This document shows positions 13,580 to 21,482 of a stretch of 33,319 nt of DNA, piece after piece. A program made the translations under genes and the position numbers. Below the pieces are notes generated by a model that saw only the letters and a list, made by a program, of their open reading frames with translations, was not told the DNA's origin and did no database searches. The stretch covers positions 1 through 33,319 of the forward strand of contig JBDKUO010000001.1 in the NCBI GenBank assembly GCA_039679645.1. The letters are read 5' to 3'. Origin of the DNA: Armatimonadota bacterium. Lineage in GTDB: Bacteria > Armatimonadota > UBA5829. The first letter of the stretch is position 1. The number at the start of each line of letters is the position of its first letter.

Positions 13580-14203
13580 CTAAATGTTGAATACGCGATA
13601 GCGTATTGGTTGTTTGCGCGATGGTCGTCTCACCAGTTGGGCATGTTCTATCATCCTGAAATCACGCTTATCGGCGGACAACAGCGACTTTATAAACTCT
13701 TTATTACTGGCTTTATTGCCGGTTGCGGAGGCCTCGGCTGTGCAGCTCGCACAGTAGCTTCTGGATAAGAGCACGGAGCCATCGTCATCGGAGAAGTTCA
13801 CGACTATTGTAGGAAATGGTTCCACCTTACCGCAGATGTTGCATTTTGGGACGGCAAGCAGTTTGCTTCCCGTGTGCTCAGCAAGCTCTTTTATGATTCG
13901 GCAACTGAGTTCATCAAACGATCTCTGCGTGACCACAAACGCATAATTCTCTTTTAAGATATCTTCGATCTCATCGAGCATGCTTTCATTACATTCATGC
14001 GCCTGCACAACATAGCTCGCGAGCCTGCCCTTTGAGAGCTGCCTGATCATAAGCTCGGGTTCCAACTCTGAAAAGAGTCTGTCGATCTCACGCTCTTCAT
14101 TGTTGGAGCGTGTCTCAACCAGATACACAGCCCTCATCCCATTTGGTTTGGGATCAACGCAAATTTCCCGAACTGTCTCCACTGCCCCCACTTTTCCAGG
14201 CAT
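13580..14203 (-). CDS. hypothetical CxxC...CxxC protein co-operonic with mraZ, 207 aa
   Basis: I do not recognise the family. Residues 1-115 look like a mixed alpha/beta domain. C121, C124, C151 and C154 form a probable zinc site (CNIC and CASC, 26 residues apart), and the tail is basic (RRPSRKQPIRYR), which would suit nucleic-acid binding. No signal peptide or membrane segment. The ATG at 14203 has AAGGGAG as Shine-Dalgarno. A strong promoter with MraZ-box-like repeats precedes it, and mraZ follows 36 bases after its stop, so the two probably form one transcript. Confidence 0.72.
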   Translation of the reverse strand: MPGKVGAVETVREICVDPKPNGMRAVYLVETRSNNEEREIDRLFSELEPELMIRQLSKGRLASYVVQAHECNESMLDEIEDILKENYAFVVTQRSFDELSCRIIKELAEHTGSKLLAVPKCNICGKVEPFPTIVVNFSDDDGSVLLSRSYCASCTAEASATGNKASNKEFIKSLLSADKRDFRMIEHAQLVRRPSRKQPIRYRVFNI

Positions 14204-14379: not shown

Positions 14380-17300
14380 CTATCGGGTTTGAAGTCCGAT
14401 AAAAAGCTTGCTGTCTATATCTACCAGCGGGTCAGTCTCGTTGTGGGCGGCTGCATTTGCAAAGACCACGCCCGGCTTTTCGGACCGCATTGCCCGCACA
14501 ATAACGCCATAGCCCTGGGCGGAACTATACTCGCGTGCGCCGTAAGCCATATATAGCGGCTGTGTAGAAATATGCGCCAGTCTTCGCCGCATGTCAACGG
14601 CAAGTGCGCAGATCTCATCCGATTTCAGACCGTCTCTGAACCCGCCTGAAATATAAACATCGCTGCCCGCGGCATCTATTGCCGGACCGTAGGGTCCTAT
14701 GAGCTTTCGGATGCTTTCTGCTGAACTGCGTGCACCGCTTTTTGCCGAGAGAAGCTGAGGGCCTATATCGCTTGAGTCGAAGTCGGTGCCAGACTCGATA
14801 ATTTCATTCATCTCATCCACACCCGACTCTCTTTCCATACTAGCTCCTGCAAATGGGCTCAGCGATGCTCCAGATAACTTGCACATTTCAAATCCCAGTT
14901 GCATAAGCTGCTGGGAGGCCGATATAGCGGCATCTACTCCGTCGCGCTCGAGTAGATTACTGAGCGCACTTATCAGCTTTTCTCTTGTTAGGAAGCCTTG
15001 GGTGCAGTCTATTTCATCTCCGATAATTGTTTCGATCTTGACCAAACCCTCTGCACTCCGGCTGAGCTGGGCAAGTCCCCACATGGCTTCATTAGCAGGG
15101 CTGATCCATCTTATCAAAGAGTGATCACGTCTCAAGTGACCAGATATGGACATCAGTTTGCCTGCCTCATGCTGAGCTTCATTCGTAAGCGGAAGAAAGA
15201 CAGCAGCCTGATCGCCGTCAAAGTCACTGTTTAATAGCATGCATGCGATTTGATGCAGCCGGATCGATCTGCCCGGCACACGGACGGGGTGAAAAGCAAG
15301 CAGACAGGTTGGCATGAACGTTGGGGCTCGATTCAGGATAATCCATGAATCCGCCATGATCTTGTCCAGTGTTTGTATCGCCTCGTTTTCTTGCAGGCTA
15401 TCAAAAGGCTTGCCGGTTTTTTGCTCTACAATAGGTCCGAAGAGTGCCCGAGACATTTCATCTGGGATTCCGACCTGATCAGCACTCAGGTTGGAAGAAG
15501 GCGACAGGACTGTTCTGCCGCTGAAAAGCACCTGGTTGAAAAAGTTCACCTGCTTGTGAGATATGAGCGCGTCGAAATAGTCATCTATAGCAGTCTCCAA
15601 ATCAGCTTTCAGCTTAATTTTGAGGCTTTCGGGAGCCTTGGTTGCCAGCAAGCGCTTCATTCTGTCATTGATATCGGCGAGTGCTTTATACTCAGCGATA
15701 TCTGTAACACCGACTTCAGTCAGTTCATGCCCAGCCGACCATGGGTGCCTGACTGCGCATGCGAGTTTGAGCTTGTCACCCTCGACGCCAGTTTTCTTGA
15801 ACTCAACACTGTCGCCTGTGAACTCAGCGCTGATACCGATCGCATTTAGATGTTTCTTGAGCCTGTCGAACATAGGAGTGGTCGGCCCGGGCAATTCGAC
15901 AGCATGCTCTGCTACCCGTTTTGCTAGCGTGTAGCTGTCTTCGCGCTCCACAGACCGCAAGTTATATGTCTCAGCGATGTTTGCATATGCTCCGACATCC
16001 CGCATGGCGTAATATTCATATTCGCCCTGCAGGTTGAGTGGCTCGCCCGGACTGACTGCATAATGAATCTTGTGCGCAGAAATATGAACGGTCCGACCCC
16101 AGTAGACCCATCCCACAGTGCTGCGCCGCGAAAGTCTATCCCCATCCTTGCCCATGGTGAGGGTTTCCATGCCGTCATCAGGCAGCCCTGCTTTTGCAAG
16201 GCGCTCTTTCAGCTCTACTTCAGACGGTCCATTAAATGGCGGCGCAACAGCGCACTTGCCTTCAGCGTGCGCGATCCTGCCGAGAAGAGCCTCTCGGATC
16301 TGCCCGAAATTGAGGCGTTTGTCGATCCCGCAGAAGCTGAAGACCAGCTCGACAGGCGTGCCGTCAGGCATATGCGGCATCTCGTCATCCGGCAAAATTT
16401 TGCCGATCACACCTTTCGCGCCGTGTCGGTTGCTGAACTTGTCCCCAATCTCGACAGGTATATCGTAGTGCATTCTTCGAGAGGCTGACTCGCTGATTAT
16501 GATGCTGTCTTCATATGTTTCGGGTCCCCAAAACACAAATGCAGTGAGCAGGTTATAGCCGCACCAGAAATCGGGCACATCAGGCTCATTGTCGGTGCGC
16601 ACGATGGCCGGCTCCGGGTTGATTGGTGGAATCCACTGCCGCATCATGTTGGCTCCCATCAACTGGTGGACCGGATTGTTGTGTTCAAGCAGCGGGACTG
16701 TGGATGCCGTGAGTTGCAGCATAGCACTTGGGCTATCGTCGAACACTTCGATTTTTCCGTTCTCGATATGTGCTCCCAGCGCTATACTGAAGACATGGCC
16801 GATGTTGGGACCTTCGGGAGTCTCAAATGGGCAGACTCGTCCAAACTGACTCGGCGTGACGACATCCTCAATGTCCTTAATGATAATGCGCCTTAGATGG
16901 GTTATAGCTGCGAGCCGGTTTGTGGTATCTTGGGCTTGACCTGTCGCCCAGTGATCGCAGTCACCATCTGCAGATGTTATAAGACTGCGGACCCAGATAT
17001 CCAGAGGCAGTATAGTGCGTATGAAATCCTCATCCGGCGGAGGCGTATCGTGTCCGGCTTCGCCAATACGCTCCTCTATGTAATCGTATAGCTGCTCGCC
17101 GACGCATTTTACCTCGGCTCTGTCCAGGTGAGCGGATGTTGCAACCGGCACCACCACTCGGGGCTTACCATCAACCATAAAGACGCCCTCGCTATTCGGG
17201 CTGAGTATGTCATATATCACATCAAACTCATTGTCGGCTGCTATTGAGACCGTTACCCGGCAGGTGTAGTCATCTACATGCTCGGTAATGTATCCGGCCA

Positions 17301-17394
17301 GGGGTAGCTTTGCAGCAAGCAGTTCCGGCAGTTTTTGACTTACAAAGCGCTCATAGGACGCCTTATGCCACGGTGCTGTGTATGAACTTTGCAT
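14380..17394 (-). CDS. single-chain minimal RNA polymerase: fused beta and beta' subunits, 1004 aa
   Basis: A two-barrel RNA polymerase in one short chain. Beta part (about 1-525): VDGKPRVVV; the rifampicin-pocket-like ITHLRR (164-169); FGRVCPFETPEGPNIG (184-199); GANMMRQ (247-253); YEDSIIISE with E295/D296; GDKFSNRHGAKG (317-328) with active-site lysines K319 and K327; TVGWVYW; and a beta-like C-terminus MFDRLKKHLNAIGI. Beta' part (about 545-1004): clamp helices INDRMKRLL, SGRTV, NRAPT (R689), catalytic NSDFDGDQ (722-729; D724, D726, D728), SGARSSAESIRKL (886-898), FRDGL, and a possible trigger helix with PG...H984. Missing: beta flap, beta' N-terminus with zinc finger, jaw. E. coli beta plus beta' total about 2750 residues. 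The start ATG overlaps the sigma stop (TGATG) with a GGAGG site. It is predicted to be catalytically competent and is not a normal rpoB/rpoC. Confidence 0.93.
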   Translation of the reverse strand: MQSSYTAPWHKASYERFVSQKLPELLAAKLPLAGYITEHVDDYTCRVTVSIAADNEFDVIYDILSPNSEGVFMVDGKPRVVVPVATSAHLDRAEVKCVGEQLYDYIEERIGEAGHDTPPPDEDFIRTILPLDIWVRSLITSADGDCDHWATGQAQDTTNRLAAITHLRRIIIKDIEDVVTPSQFGRVCPFETPEGPNIGHVFSIALGAHIENGKIEVFDDSPSAMLQLTASTVPLLEHNNPVHQLMGANMMRQWIPPINPEPAIVRTDNEPDVPDFWCGYNLLTAFVFWGPETYEDSIIISESASRRMHYDIPVEIGDKFSNRHGAKGVIGKILPDDEMPHMPDGTPVELVFSFCGIDKRLNFGQIREALLGRIAHAEGKCAVAPPFNGPSEVELKERLAKAGLPDDGMETLTMGKDGDRLSRRSTVGWVYWGRTVHISAHKIHYAVSPGEPLNLQGEYEYYAMRDVGAYANIAETYNLRSVEREDSYTLAKRVAEHAVELPGPTTPMFDRLKKHLNAIGISAEFTGDSVEFKKTGVEGDKLKLACAVRHPWSAGHELTEVGVTDIAEYKALADINDRMKRLLATKAPESLKIKLKADLETAIDDYFDALISHKQVNFFNQVLFSGRTVLSPSSNLSADQVGIPDEMSRALFGPIVEQKTGKPFDSLQENEAIQTLDKIMADSWIILNRAPTFMPTCLLAFHPVRVPGRSIRLHQIACMLLNSDFDGDQAAVFLPLTNEAQHEAGKLMSISGHLRRDHSLIRWISPANEAMWGLAQLSRSAEGLVKIETIIGDEIDCTQGFLTREKLISALSNLLERDGVDAAISASQQLMQLGFEMCKLSGASLSPFAGASMERESGVDEMNEIIESGTDFDSSDIGPQLLSAKSGARSSAESIRKLIGPYGPAIDAAGSDVYISGGFRDGLKSDEICALAVDMRRRLAHISTQPLYMAYGAREYSSAQGYGVIVRAMRSEKPGVVFANAAAHNETDPLVDIDSKLFIGLQTR

Positions 17395-17990
17395 CAGAGT
17401 TCCTCCCATTCGGAGCAGATCTTGTCCCATTGCAGGGCAAGACGTTTGCGTGCATTATGAAGGCGTGATTTGATCGTTCCTTCGGGTATGCCTAGAGTCT
17501 CGGCTGCCTCACTGATTCCCATATCCGACTCGTGCACAAGCCGGATCACTTCGCGCTTTTCTTCTGGTAGATCATCGACCAACTGTCTGGCCATTGCCAG
17601 CCGCTCTGCAATCTCCAAAGCCTCTTCAGGTCCAATCGTTGCTTCATCCACCATCCACTCTGGGACCGAAGGACCCTCTTGCTCGTCGGTCGAGAATCGT
17701 CCTTCCAGCGGCACTTCTCTTTTTCGTCTCAGTGATCGCAGGTGATTAAGCGCTTGGTTTGTGGCGATTCTAAGCAGCCATGAAATGCACACGCCAGTCT
17801 GGTCCCACTGGTCTGCATGCATCCACACTCTCAGGAATGTCTCTTGCAGGATATCCTCTGTCGCATCGGGATTGCGAAGGATTCTTCCAATGTGAAGCCG
17901 AATGCGCTCACGATGACGCTCGAAAAAAGTCTCGAACGCATCTGTGTCTTGTCCTTGTATCGCCTGCAGAAGATCCCTGTCGGATCGCAT
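17394..17990 (-). CDS. ECF-type sigma-70 family factor, 198 aa
   Basis: Region 2 (about 17-88) has the ECF pattern with ATEDILQETFLRVW (43-56) and WLLRIATNQALNHLR (71-85). Region 4 (about 130-184) has LPEEKREVIRL and the helix-turn-helix ISEAAETLGIPEGTIKSRL (159-177). Regions 1 and 3 are absent, as in ECF factors. The ATG at 17990 is chosen because GGAGGG lies 7 bases upstream. An ATG at 18005 lacks a ribosome site. Its TGA shares one base with the ATG of the fused polymerase, so the two proteins are made in a coupled way, the strongest hint that this sigma serves that polymerase. No anti-sigma gene is recognised nearby. Confidence 0.92.
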   Translation of the reverse strand: MRSDRDLLQAIQGQDTDAFETFFERHRERIRLHIGRILRNPDATEDILQETFLRVWMHADQWDQTGVCISWLLRIATNQALNHLRSLRRKREVPLEGRFSTDEQEGPSVPEWMVDEATIGPEEALEIAERLAMARQLVDDLPEEKREVIRLVHESDMGISEAAETLGIPEGTIKSRLHNARKRLALQWDKICSEWEEL

Positions 17991-18073
17991 CAAAACGCCC
18001 TCCATAACTCAAGACACCGCGCACTTGATAAAGGTTCATCGGTGAAATCACATTCCCGAGTCTGTCCTCATAC

Positions 18074-18101
18074 TGTATAATACTTGTATGAATAATGACA
18101 A
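18074..18101 (-). promoter_or_regulatory. candidate promoter of the sigma/polymerase operon
   Basis: On the minus strand TTGTCA (18101-18096), 16 bases, then TATACA (18079-18074). The -10 shares four bases with the opposite-strand TATAAT (18076-18081), so the divergent promoters would be mutually exclusive. The -10 match is only moderate. Confidence 0.35.
18076..18081 (+). promoter_or_regulatory. -10 element TATAAT, leaderless transcript predicted
   Basis: A consensus TATAAT ends 6 bases before the ATG at 18088, so transcription would begin at or beside the A of the start codon. No Shine-Dalgarno is present. The -35 region is weak. Confidence 0.5.
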
Positions 18102-18867
18102 CAGTGTACCTATGCGCCCGAGCCTGTCCAGAGCGATTCGCAAAGGCTTTATTGATGCATACGATCACCTGGGCTATGTGGTGCTTGTAACGTTTATAAC
18201 CTTTATGCTTGTGGCTTTGGTCGCAGGTCTTATGTCATTCATCTGGCGTTCCCCAAACGCGCTGAATATAGTAAAGGCATTATCAATACTGCCTGCCCTT
18301 TTTGTAGCTTATTTGTGTGCGGTGGGTGTGTATTATTTCGCTGGTATGGTCGTTTATCGAGAGCACCCTGTTTTGCTGGATACCCTGGCCGGAATCCGCA
18401 GGCTAATCAAACCAGCACTAAAGATGTGTGTGATTGATACTCTCGTGACCGCTATTCTGGTAGTCGACTTTGTTTTCTTCTTTATAATGATCGGCAGCAA
18501 ACGCAATATGATATTTGCCGTGCCTGCAATTTTGATCGGATACGCCACCATAACCTGGCTGAATATGATGATCTACCACCTGCCGCTGCTTTCTTCCCAG
18601 TTTTTGTTGGAGTCGAATACGAGTATAAAAGTGATTCTGCGCAAGTCATTCCTGCTGATGGCCGATAATCCCGGCTTTACAGTAAGTCTCTTTCTTGTTA
18701 TAATCGCCTTTGCAGTGCTCTGCGTAGTCCCCATGTTTATTGGGATCGCGTTCCTGTTTTTGGGAGCCTCCGCGTTCCTCATCACCCATGCCTTGCGCGA
18801 ACTCTTTGTCAAGTACGGCATTGTTGAAGAGGAACCGGAAATCGTGGAGGATAATTACAAATTCTGA
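18088..18867 (+). CDS. polytopic membrane protein, possibly DUF624/YesL-like, 259 aa
   Basis: About six membrane helices follow a 25-residue polar N-terminus, and the tail is acidic (EEEPEIVED). The distribution of helices and the motif 'DNPGFTVSLFL...' with a final helix before 'ALRELFVKYG' recall the DUF624/YesL membrane proteins, which often sit near sugar-uptake genes; this is a tentative match. The gene is divergent from the sigma/polymerase operon with an 82- to 97-base gap and shared promoter DNA. Its stop codon lies inside the left arm of a fold-back repeat, so the last codons may have been remodelled by that element. Confidence 0.75.
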   Translation: MNNDNSVPMRPSLSRAIRKGFIDAYDHLGYVVLVTFITFMLVALVAGLMSFIWRSPNALNIVKALSILPALFVAYLCAVGVYYFAGMVVYREHPVLLDTLAGIRRLIKPALKMCVIDTLVTAILVVDFVFFFIMIGSKRNMIFAVPAILIGYATITWLNMMIYHLPLLSSQFLLESNTSIKVILRKSFLLMADNPGFTVSLFLVIIAFAVLCVVPMFIGIAFLFLGASAFLITHALRELFVKYGIVEEEPEIVEDNYKF

Positions 18868-20788: not shown

Positions 20789-21118
20789 ATGAGCACATCC
20801 AGTACAGATAGCATAATAGATAGCATTGTAGATCGAATCATTGAGGCTGCAAGCCCGGAGCGTATTGTGCTTTTCGGCAGCAGGGCGCGCGGCACTTTTC
20901 GTGATGACAGCGACTATGACGTACTGGTGATAAAAGAGTCTGACGAGCCCAGGTTCAGACGTTCCGCGCCACTATATACGAAACTAGCGGACCTTTCGGT
21001 TGAGGTGGAAGTAGTTGTTTATACACCCGAAGAGGTTTCTGAATGGAGCCAGGTGCCGCAGGCGTTCGTGACGACTGCTTTGCGCGAGGGAAAGGTCATC
21101 TATGAAAGAGCGGCATGA
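20789..21118 (+). CDS. minimal nucleotidyltransferase (MNT domain), 109 aa
   Basis: The Pol-beta-type nucleotidyltransferase motif GSRARGTFRDDSDYD fits GS-x10-DxD exactly, giving two metal-binding aspartates, with a later conserved 'VEVEVVVYT' strand holding the third carboxylate. MNT proteins paired with HEPN proteins often act as antitoxins that AMPylate the partner. The gene overlaps the following HEPN gene by 17 bases, the classic two-gene arrangement. Confidence 0.9.
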   Translation: MSTSSTDSIIDSIVDRIIEAASPERIVLFGSRARGTFRDDSDYDVLVIKESDEPRFRRSAPLYTKLADLSVEVEVVVYTPEEVSEWSQVPQAFVTTALREGKVIYERAA

Positions 21119-21482
21119 TTTGGTCCAGTCTCTGCTGCGAAAAGCAGATAGTGACATCTTGGCTGCGGAAGCAACACTCAATGCAGGTGCTCTTGATGCT
21201 ACGGCATTTCATGCTCAACAAGCTGCTGAGAAGTTGCTAAAGGCATATTTAACTAGTGTAGACATAGACTATCCATTCACTCATAACCTTGCGAGGCTTG
21301 TGGAGCTTTGTGCACGAGAAAACACTGATTTTGATGTGTTGAGGCCAATTGTCGAGATATTAATCCCGTATGCAGTTGAACTTCGTTACGATGGTGATTT
21401 CTGGCCCGATAAAGCCACGGCGGAAGAAGCCTTGTCGCTTGCGCATCAAGTCAAGGATTTTGTAATGGCAAGGCTCGCATAA
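21102..21482 (+). CDS. HEPN-domain protein, partner of the nucleotidyltransferase, 126 aa
   Basis: An all-helical HEPN domain with 'KADSDILAAEATL', the FHAQQAAEKLLKAYL core (36-50) and 'FTHNLARLVELC', as in the HEPN family of Pfam PF05168. The R-x4-6-H ribonuclease motif of toxic HEPN proteins (HepT type) is not found; the corresponding region reads 'ELRYDGDFWPD'. The pair may therefore have a role other than RNA cleavage, such as ligand-dependent nucleotidyl transfer. The ATG at 21102 lies inside the upstream gene with AAAGG before it. Confidence 0.88.
   Translation: MKERHDLVQSLLRKADSDILAAEATLNAGALDATAFHAQQAAEKLLKAYLTSVDIDYPFTHNLARLVELCARENTDFDVLRPIVEILIPYAVELRYDGDFWPDKATAEEALSLAHQVKDFVMARLA

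Follow-up and report, generated by a model that had tools for sequence, protein, structure and literature searches.

A two-gene locus of an Armatimonadota bacterium pairs an ECF sigma factor with a predicted single-chain beta-beta' RNA polymerase

YonO of the Bacillus phage SP-beta is an RNA polymerase (RNAP) made of one chain of ~100-110 kDa, which carries both double-psi barrels and the DxDGD motif, has no trigger loop and acts as an accessory to the host enzyme (PMC5467207). It has only few residues in common with cellular RNAP, and a split before the last universal common ancestor was proposed for it; YonO-like genes were reported in bacterial chromosomes too, and no sigma partner has been reported for YonO (PMC5467207). 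The RNAPs of the jumbo phages phiKZ and AR9 are reduced two-barrel enzymes working beside the host enzyme and composed of several polypeptides (PMC7598289, PMC7824862); no sigma factor was found in these group 1 jumbo phages (PMC7824862). Here we report a computational analysis of a 33,319-nt stretch of DNA from an Armatimonadota bacterium (contig JBDKUO010000001.1; hereafter, the window), in which a gene for an extracytoplasmic function (ECF) sigma factor is directly followed by a gene for a 1004-residue chain resembling a joined and much shortened version of the bacterial RNAP subunits beta and beta'. In our assessment, the two genes probably constitute a self-contained accessory transcription system, in which the ECF sigma would recruit the one-chain polymerase to GAACC-N15-GTGTC promoters, their own first. 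All sigma-dependent transcription known to us uses a five-subunit core, and our literature search (of incomplete coverage) found no earlier description of such a system of a sigma factor and a one-chain polymerase.

The two genes and the anatomy of the chain

The sigma gene lies on the minus strand at 18005-17394 and encodes 203 aa counted from the first ATG, or 198 aa from an internal ATG at 17990. Its frame contains sigma regions 2 and 4 only, with all scores over the cut-off (Pfam Sigma70_r2 and r4_2: PF04542 52.0 and PF08281 50.3 bits; TIGR02937 sigma70-ECF 92.1 bits with a cut-off of 42.9). The polymerase gene follows on the same strand (17394-14380, 1004 aa; an upstream in-frame ATG at 17430 would yield 1016 aa). 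At the junction, GGGAGGAACTCTGATG, base 17394 is common to the sigma TGA and the polymerase ATG, which bears out the one-base overlap (TGATG) reported in the first-pass annotation of the locus. The ribosome-binding site of the polymerase gene, GGGAGGAA (17400-17407, minus strand), is located within the 3' end of the sigma gene, and a similar GGAG-type site was observed in nearly all other loci of the family described below.

The same annotation had read the chain as a succession of beta and then beta' hallmarks. Indeed, all of the quoted motifs (TPEGPNIG, YEDS, GDKFSNRHGAKG, NRAPT, NSDFDGDQ and SGARSSAESIR) were found in the one polymerase frame, in which Pfam domains of both subunits (Rpb2_3, Rpb2_6 and Rpb1_2) score above the cut-off. 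The comparison with RpoB and RpoC profiles, performed with hhalign, pointed in the same direction: the chain is colinear with E. coli beta 31-147 and 442-1341 (main block E 9.5e-72, 32% identity) and with E. coli beta' 242-801 (E 2.3e-50, 27% identity), and the beta-then-beta' colinearity spans ~917 of its residues. An AlphaFold2 (AF2) model of the chain alone reached a predicted local distance difference test (pLDDT) value of 93.9 and a predicted template modeling score (pTM) of 0.91 with an input of 17 family rows and RpoB/RpoC fragments (pLDDT 47 with a six-row input), the canonical RpoB/RpoC rows raising the confidence and covering the homologous parts only. Among solved structures, RNA polymerase beta matches the model over 509 residues at 2.8 A (VIA Z 25.8), and Foldseek also retrieves beta' chains.

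According to these alignments, the beta side keeps the Rif-cluster segment, TPEGPN, ED, GDK..RHG..K and the beta C-terminus, and the beta' side keeps the clamp coiled coil, the dock, DxDGD, the F-loop and the bridge helix; switch-region segments are also kept. The coiled coil (residues 567-610; 15565-15696, minus strand) is aligned to E. coli beta' 269-309 and forms two antiparallel helices in the model (567-584/589-610), and the bridge helix (residues 925-957; 14524-14622, minus strand) is a model helix, with the alignment to E. coli beta' extending up to 801. The lost parts include the beta lobe as well as the zipper, Zn ribbon, rudder, trigger loop and jaw of beta'. The beta flap and its insert are lost too, a few residues replacing E. 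coli 826-1057 with one isolated aligned residue within 848-1057. No counterpart was found in the chain for beta' 1-241 and beta' 802-1328, where the landmark residues are unaligned; in place of the trigger loop, there are ~17 residues between the bridge helix and a C-terminal motif, and M932, R933 and H936 have no aligned equivalents. This motif, VFANAAAHNETDPLVDIDSKLFIGL (14392-14472, minus strand), is conserved in the family and weakly resembles beta' 1329-1354, with an hhalign match that is insignificant alone. As bacterial profiles fit the chain better than archaeal ones do, it looks like a reduction from a bacterial beta-beta' enzyme.

The active site appears to be preserved throughout the family. 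In 18/18 sequences, the equivalents of E. coli beta' D460, D462, D464, N458, R352 and P427 are invariant, as are those of beta K1073, R1069, H1070, E565, R529 and R687, so that the loss of the active-site residues in all relatives, which the first-pass annotation named as a refuting observation, is not seen. The aspartate triad (D724, D726 and D728) belongs to the DFDGD catalytic motif at residues 724-728 (15211-15225, minus strand). Both basic residues of the beta barrel reside in GDKFSNRHGAKG (residues 317-328; 16411-16446, minus strand), of which K327 (K1073 equivalent) is invariant and K319 (K1065 equivalent) is K in 16 sequences and R in 2. The TPEGPNIG motif (residues 192-199; 16798-16821, minus strand) aligns with the E. 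coli beta P564-N568 region. The position equivalent to beta S531, looked at for rifampicin resistance, is variable. Three polymerase pairs gave ratios of nonsynonymous to synonymous substitution rates (dN/dS) of 0.11, 0.18 and 0.14, and a sigma pair gave 0.10; both the polymerase and the sigma factor are under purifying selection.

Distribution, pairing and promoter

Relatives were detected with a family-specific profile representing the C-terminal third of the chain (E <1e-17 for every piece of the family and <1e-40 for each genome's best match, as compared with E >1e-13 for ordinary RpoC); matches from a scan of the genome contigs with query A1 were swamped by ordinary rpoBC. The two-gene module is present in 19 genomes from two phyla, 17 of the 291 from the window's phylum (including 3/5 genomes of the window's genus) and 2 of the 301 sampled from a Chloroflexi phylum. 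In three further phyla it was found in 0/294, 0/244 and 0/396 sampled genomes, which is not a proof of absence. The copies are full-length and open in 17/19 cases, one of them (G077) within a 7.6-Mb single-contig genome; in the remaining two, one gene is split over two contigs and one has a stop codon. The latter, from a sister species (G003), contains one in-frame TAA (L023 1925-1930) between otherwise intact polymerase halves, with the sigma gene and the promoter intact, and may reflect a sequencing error or a recent pseudogene. This stop codon and the length of the window's contig (only 33 kb) are all that speaks for an assembly artefact or a decaying pseudogene, an explanation to which we assign a negligible probability. 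It is in fact already refuted by the 17 full-length open copies, including the one in a single-contig chromosome, which also rule out an assembly join at the beta/beta' boundary, by the dN/dS values of 0.10-0.18 and by the presence of normal, adjacent rpoB and rpoC genes on contig 44 of the window's own genome. The latter finding agrees with the initial proposal of a polymerase that exists beside the housekeeping enzyme.

The genome survey suggested in the first-pass annotation revealed a consistent partnership. A sigma gene of the same clade is located directly upstream of the polymerase gene in 19/19 loci; the two genes share 1, 4 or 14 nt in 17 loci and are 2 nt apart in the other two, and no other neighbor recurs across the loci as a conserved third gene. 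In a search of eight genomes, the window's sigma scored 180-205 bits with partner sigmas of other families and 82 bits with the best non-partner ECF sigma; in the two module-free genomes of the window's genus that were among these eight, the sigma is missing too. Pairwise distances of sigma and polymerase are strongly correlated (mirror-tree r 0.91; 0/2000 permutations as high). Overall, the sigma-polymerase pair is obligate.

A candidate promoter, GAACC-N15-GTGTC, precedes the window's sigma gene on the minus strand (18013-18037; -35 block 18037-18033, -10 block 18017-18013). The corresponding motif, GAAC-N16-GTGTC (N15 in two), is found ahead of 19/19 sigma genes, 12-32 nt before the chosen start; the sister loci among them are not independent, and the most distant loci, in two phyla, have the same motif. 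In shuffled upstream regions it occurred at 0.064 loci on average (maximum 2). GAAC-N15/16-GTGTC is laid out like an ECF promoter and stands before all 19 sigma genes; therefore, the pair looks positively autoregulated.

Proposed mode of action and points against it

In the mechanism that we favor, the ECF sigma would bring the one-chain polymerase to GAACC-N15-GTGTC promoters, with the pair's own promoter as the first target (hence, positive autoregulation), and the chain would polymerize RNA from DNA. Known holoenzymes hold their sigma at two docks, the clamp coiled coil for region 2 and the flap for region 4. By alignment, the predicted sigma-2 dock (coiled coil) is kept and the sigma-4 dock (flap) is gone. 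Sigma region 2 would thus dock on the retained beta' coiled coil, and, since the flap is gone, sigma region 4 may be held by DNA, by a linker or by a new contact. Such a chain would need no alpha or omega, nor a flap or a trigger loop. By analogy with YonO, the enzyme should have lower fidelity and no transcript cleavage, because the trigger loop is missing.

Several observations, concerning both the chain and its promoter, weigh against this proposal. The flap that is missing from the chain is the holder of sigma region 4 in known holoenzymes (its role is discussed in PMC7824862). Sigma region 2.2 is ordinary-looking, so that binding of the host core might be conceivable as well. The equivalents of E. 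coli beta' R275, E295 and R297, which we take to be the coiled-coil positions contacting sigma-70, are not conserved in the family; this would be compatible with a private partner, yet it weakens the docking argument. In a rival view, the sigma factor uses the host core to switch the operon on, and the polymerase is the output and has another task, e.g. synthesis that needs no sigma, with RNA or with single-stranded or damaged DNA as the template. Such a scheme would account for a promoter spacing as in ordinary ECF promoters and for the ordinary sigma regions 2 and 4, besides a chain without a flap. We consider it the less probable explanation, at a chance of roughly one in six, as neither the obligate pairing (19/19) nor the tight co-variation would be expected if the sigma and the chain never touch, and as the clamp coiled coil has been retained though most non-catalytic domains were lost.

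Further points of the same kind come from the active site, where two copies deviate at beta E813/D814 (A-Y) and two others at beta' R425 and K1065 (two subclades). Such deviations at secondary residues would suit a catalytically idle decoy that titrates the sigma via the retained coiled coil, in other words, an anti-sigma made from RNA polymerase, as would the apparently autoregulated promoter. This appears improbable to us: a decoy would need neither DxDGD, RHG, K1073 and R529, all invariant in 18/18 sequences, nor a two-barrel fold of 1000 residues that purifying selection maintains.

The search for further targets (GAACC-N14/15-GTGTC, genome-wide, compared with a reversed control) adds to the reservations about the recruitment of the polymerase by its sigma. 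In 10/11 genomes, there is no clear excess of the strict promoter, the window's genome yielded 12 matches vs 14 for the reversed control, and neither there nor in the sister genome G004 does any site besides the module's own resemble a real promoter. In the remaining genome (G055), 24 matches were found vs 3 in the reversed control, most of them inside long open frames and four being copies of one repeat. Thus, of the private promoter set envisaged in the first-pass annotation, the private promoter before the pair itself (19/19) stood, and no wider set with that consensus emerged. The repeat is a near-identical GAACC...GTGTC element at four G055 contig ends (L238, L239, L246 and L248), which inflates the motif count of this genome. 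Two individual sites are recorded as leads only. A near-perfect promoter copy on contig 122 of G233 at 63268 (L261 1069-1107), 14 nt before a gene for a 229-aa membrane protein and 48 kb from the module of that genome, is a candidate second target, and on contig 267 of G055 at 1381 (L249 1082-1128) the motif occurs 22 nt before a gene with a good ribosome-binding site that encodes a cysteine-rich, ferredoxin-like membrane protein.

A more far-reaching version of the proposed system, which we advance tentatively and at less than an even chance, is that of a self-sufficient, orthogonal unit that spreads horizontally: a sigma-dependent single-chain polymerase, reduced from the bacterial enzyme, that initiates with neither flap nor trigger loop and with neither alpha nor omega. 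Its sigma would be held mainly by the clamp coiled coil, and the simplest form of the unit would chiefly transcribe its own operon. If true, promoter-specific transcription would have a natural minimum in a 1004-residue chain that retains the catalytic barrels together with the bridge helix and the sigma-2 dock and hardly anything more, and the need for flap, trigger loop, alpha and omega could be tested directly. Bacteria would then possess a cellular counterpart of orthogonal polymerases, and synthetic biology would gain a ready tool whose promoter is known.

Neighborhood, origin and comparison with known systems

Among the neighbors scanned, no integrase, transposase, phage or mobile-element genes were seen, in line with the first-pass annotation, which had noted no flanking phage or plasmid genes; the neighbors are ordinary genes, with no anti-sigma gene among them. 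PADLOC, used with respect to a role in defense, left the polymerase unmatched. The polymerase gene is probably the last of the operon, because the next gene downstream has a promoter-like sequence of the sigma-70 type before it (TTGACT-17-TATAAT at 14295-14267, a consensus match only). The downstream flank (13580-14203, minus strand) encodes a 207-aa protein with CxxC pairs that adjoins mraZ, and the other flank (18088-18867, plus strand) a divergent 259-aa membrane protein; both are unassigned to a family and are retained in the sister genome G004, not in other loci. At 20789-21482 on the plus strand, 2.8 kb from the module, paired genes for a nucleotidyltransferase (MNT) and a HEPN protein likely form a toxin-antitoxin or defense system.

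Phylogenetically, the one-chain polymerases are monophyletic with full support, and a long branch separates them from bacterial RpoB/RpoC. The module was either transferred horizontally or is ancient with much loss, because the two Chloroflexi-phylum copies are nested within the family and because G003 and the window's genome have RpoC proteins 88% identical and one-chain polymerases that share only 47% identity, which is what different families show. The patchy distribution and horizontal transfer, along with a single chain of ~1000 aa with two barrels and no trigger loop as described for YonO (PMC5467207), could also be taken to indicate a YonO-kind phage polymerase left by a prophage or another element. 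We regard this as very unlikely, given ~30% identity to bacterial RpoB/RpoC over ~900 residues where YonO reportedly has almost none (PMC5467207), and given the lack of phage genes among the neighbors scanned. Moreover, IMG/VR scans revealed no relative with the full chain or with its specific C-terminal third (query A1 matched only longer phage RNAPs), and phage and plasmid records contained no match covering 80% of the query. Three phage contigs of IMG/VR (L112, L113 and L114) carry open reading frames of ~2090-2100 aa at ~3.6-10.1 kb with beta GDK..RH and beta' DFDGD, a larger and different type of one-chain RNAP.

In comparison with the known systems, the chain shows the features of the two-double-psi-barrel RNA polymerase superfamily, i.e. 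the DxDGD Mg-binding triad and two basic beta-barrel residues. Like YonO, it carries both barrels in one polypeptide, with DxDGD and without a trigger loop. It is set apart from YonO, as described in the literature, by being plainly a reduced bacterial beta-beta' enzyme that has an ECF sigma as its obligate partner and a promoter conserved in the family; the near-zero similarity to cellular RNAP that characterizes YonO contrasts with E-values of 1e-71 to RpoB and 2e-50 to RpoC. Unlike the jumbo-phage RNAPs, it is a single polypeptide encoded in a chromosomal two-gene module with a sigma.

With the cellular RpoB and RpoC core, the chain shares the catalytic residues and the (predicted) fold in both halves; on the other hand, it is one chain of 1004 vs ~2750 residues, with NCBIfam scores of 171.6 and 100.6 vs cut-offs of 896 and 963.5, and it falls far below the canonical equivalog cut-offs (TIGR02013 167.9 vs 801; TIGR02386 100.6 vs 963.5). 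The rpoB-rpoC fusions of Helicobacter and Wolbachia (PRK09603, PRK14844) likewise join beta and beta' in the same order in one chain, but those are full-length housekeeping enzymes (2839-2890 profile positions), as opposed to 1004 aa beside a normal pair, and the chain scores 162.4 vs 5372 and 164.6 vs 4632 bits against their cut-offs. Finally, the sigma partner is like other ECF sigma factors in consisting of regions 2 and 4 only and in having a GAAC / GTGTC-type promoter motif before its own gene, and it is unlike them in forming a distinct clade whose neighbor is a polymerase.

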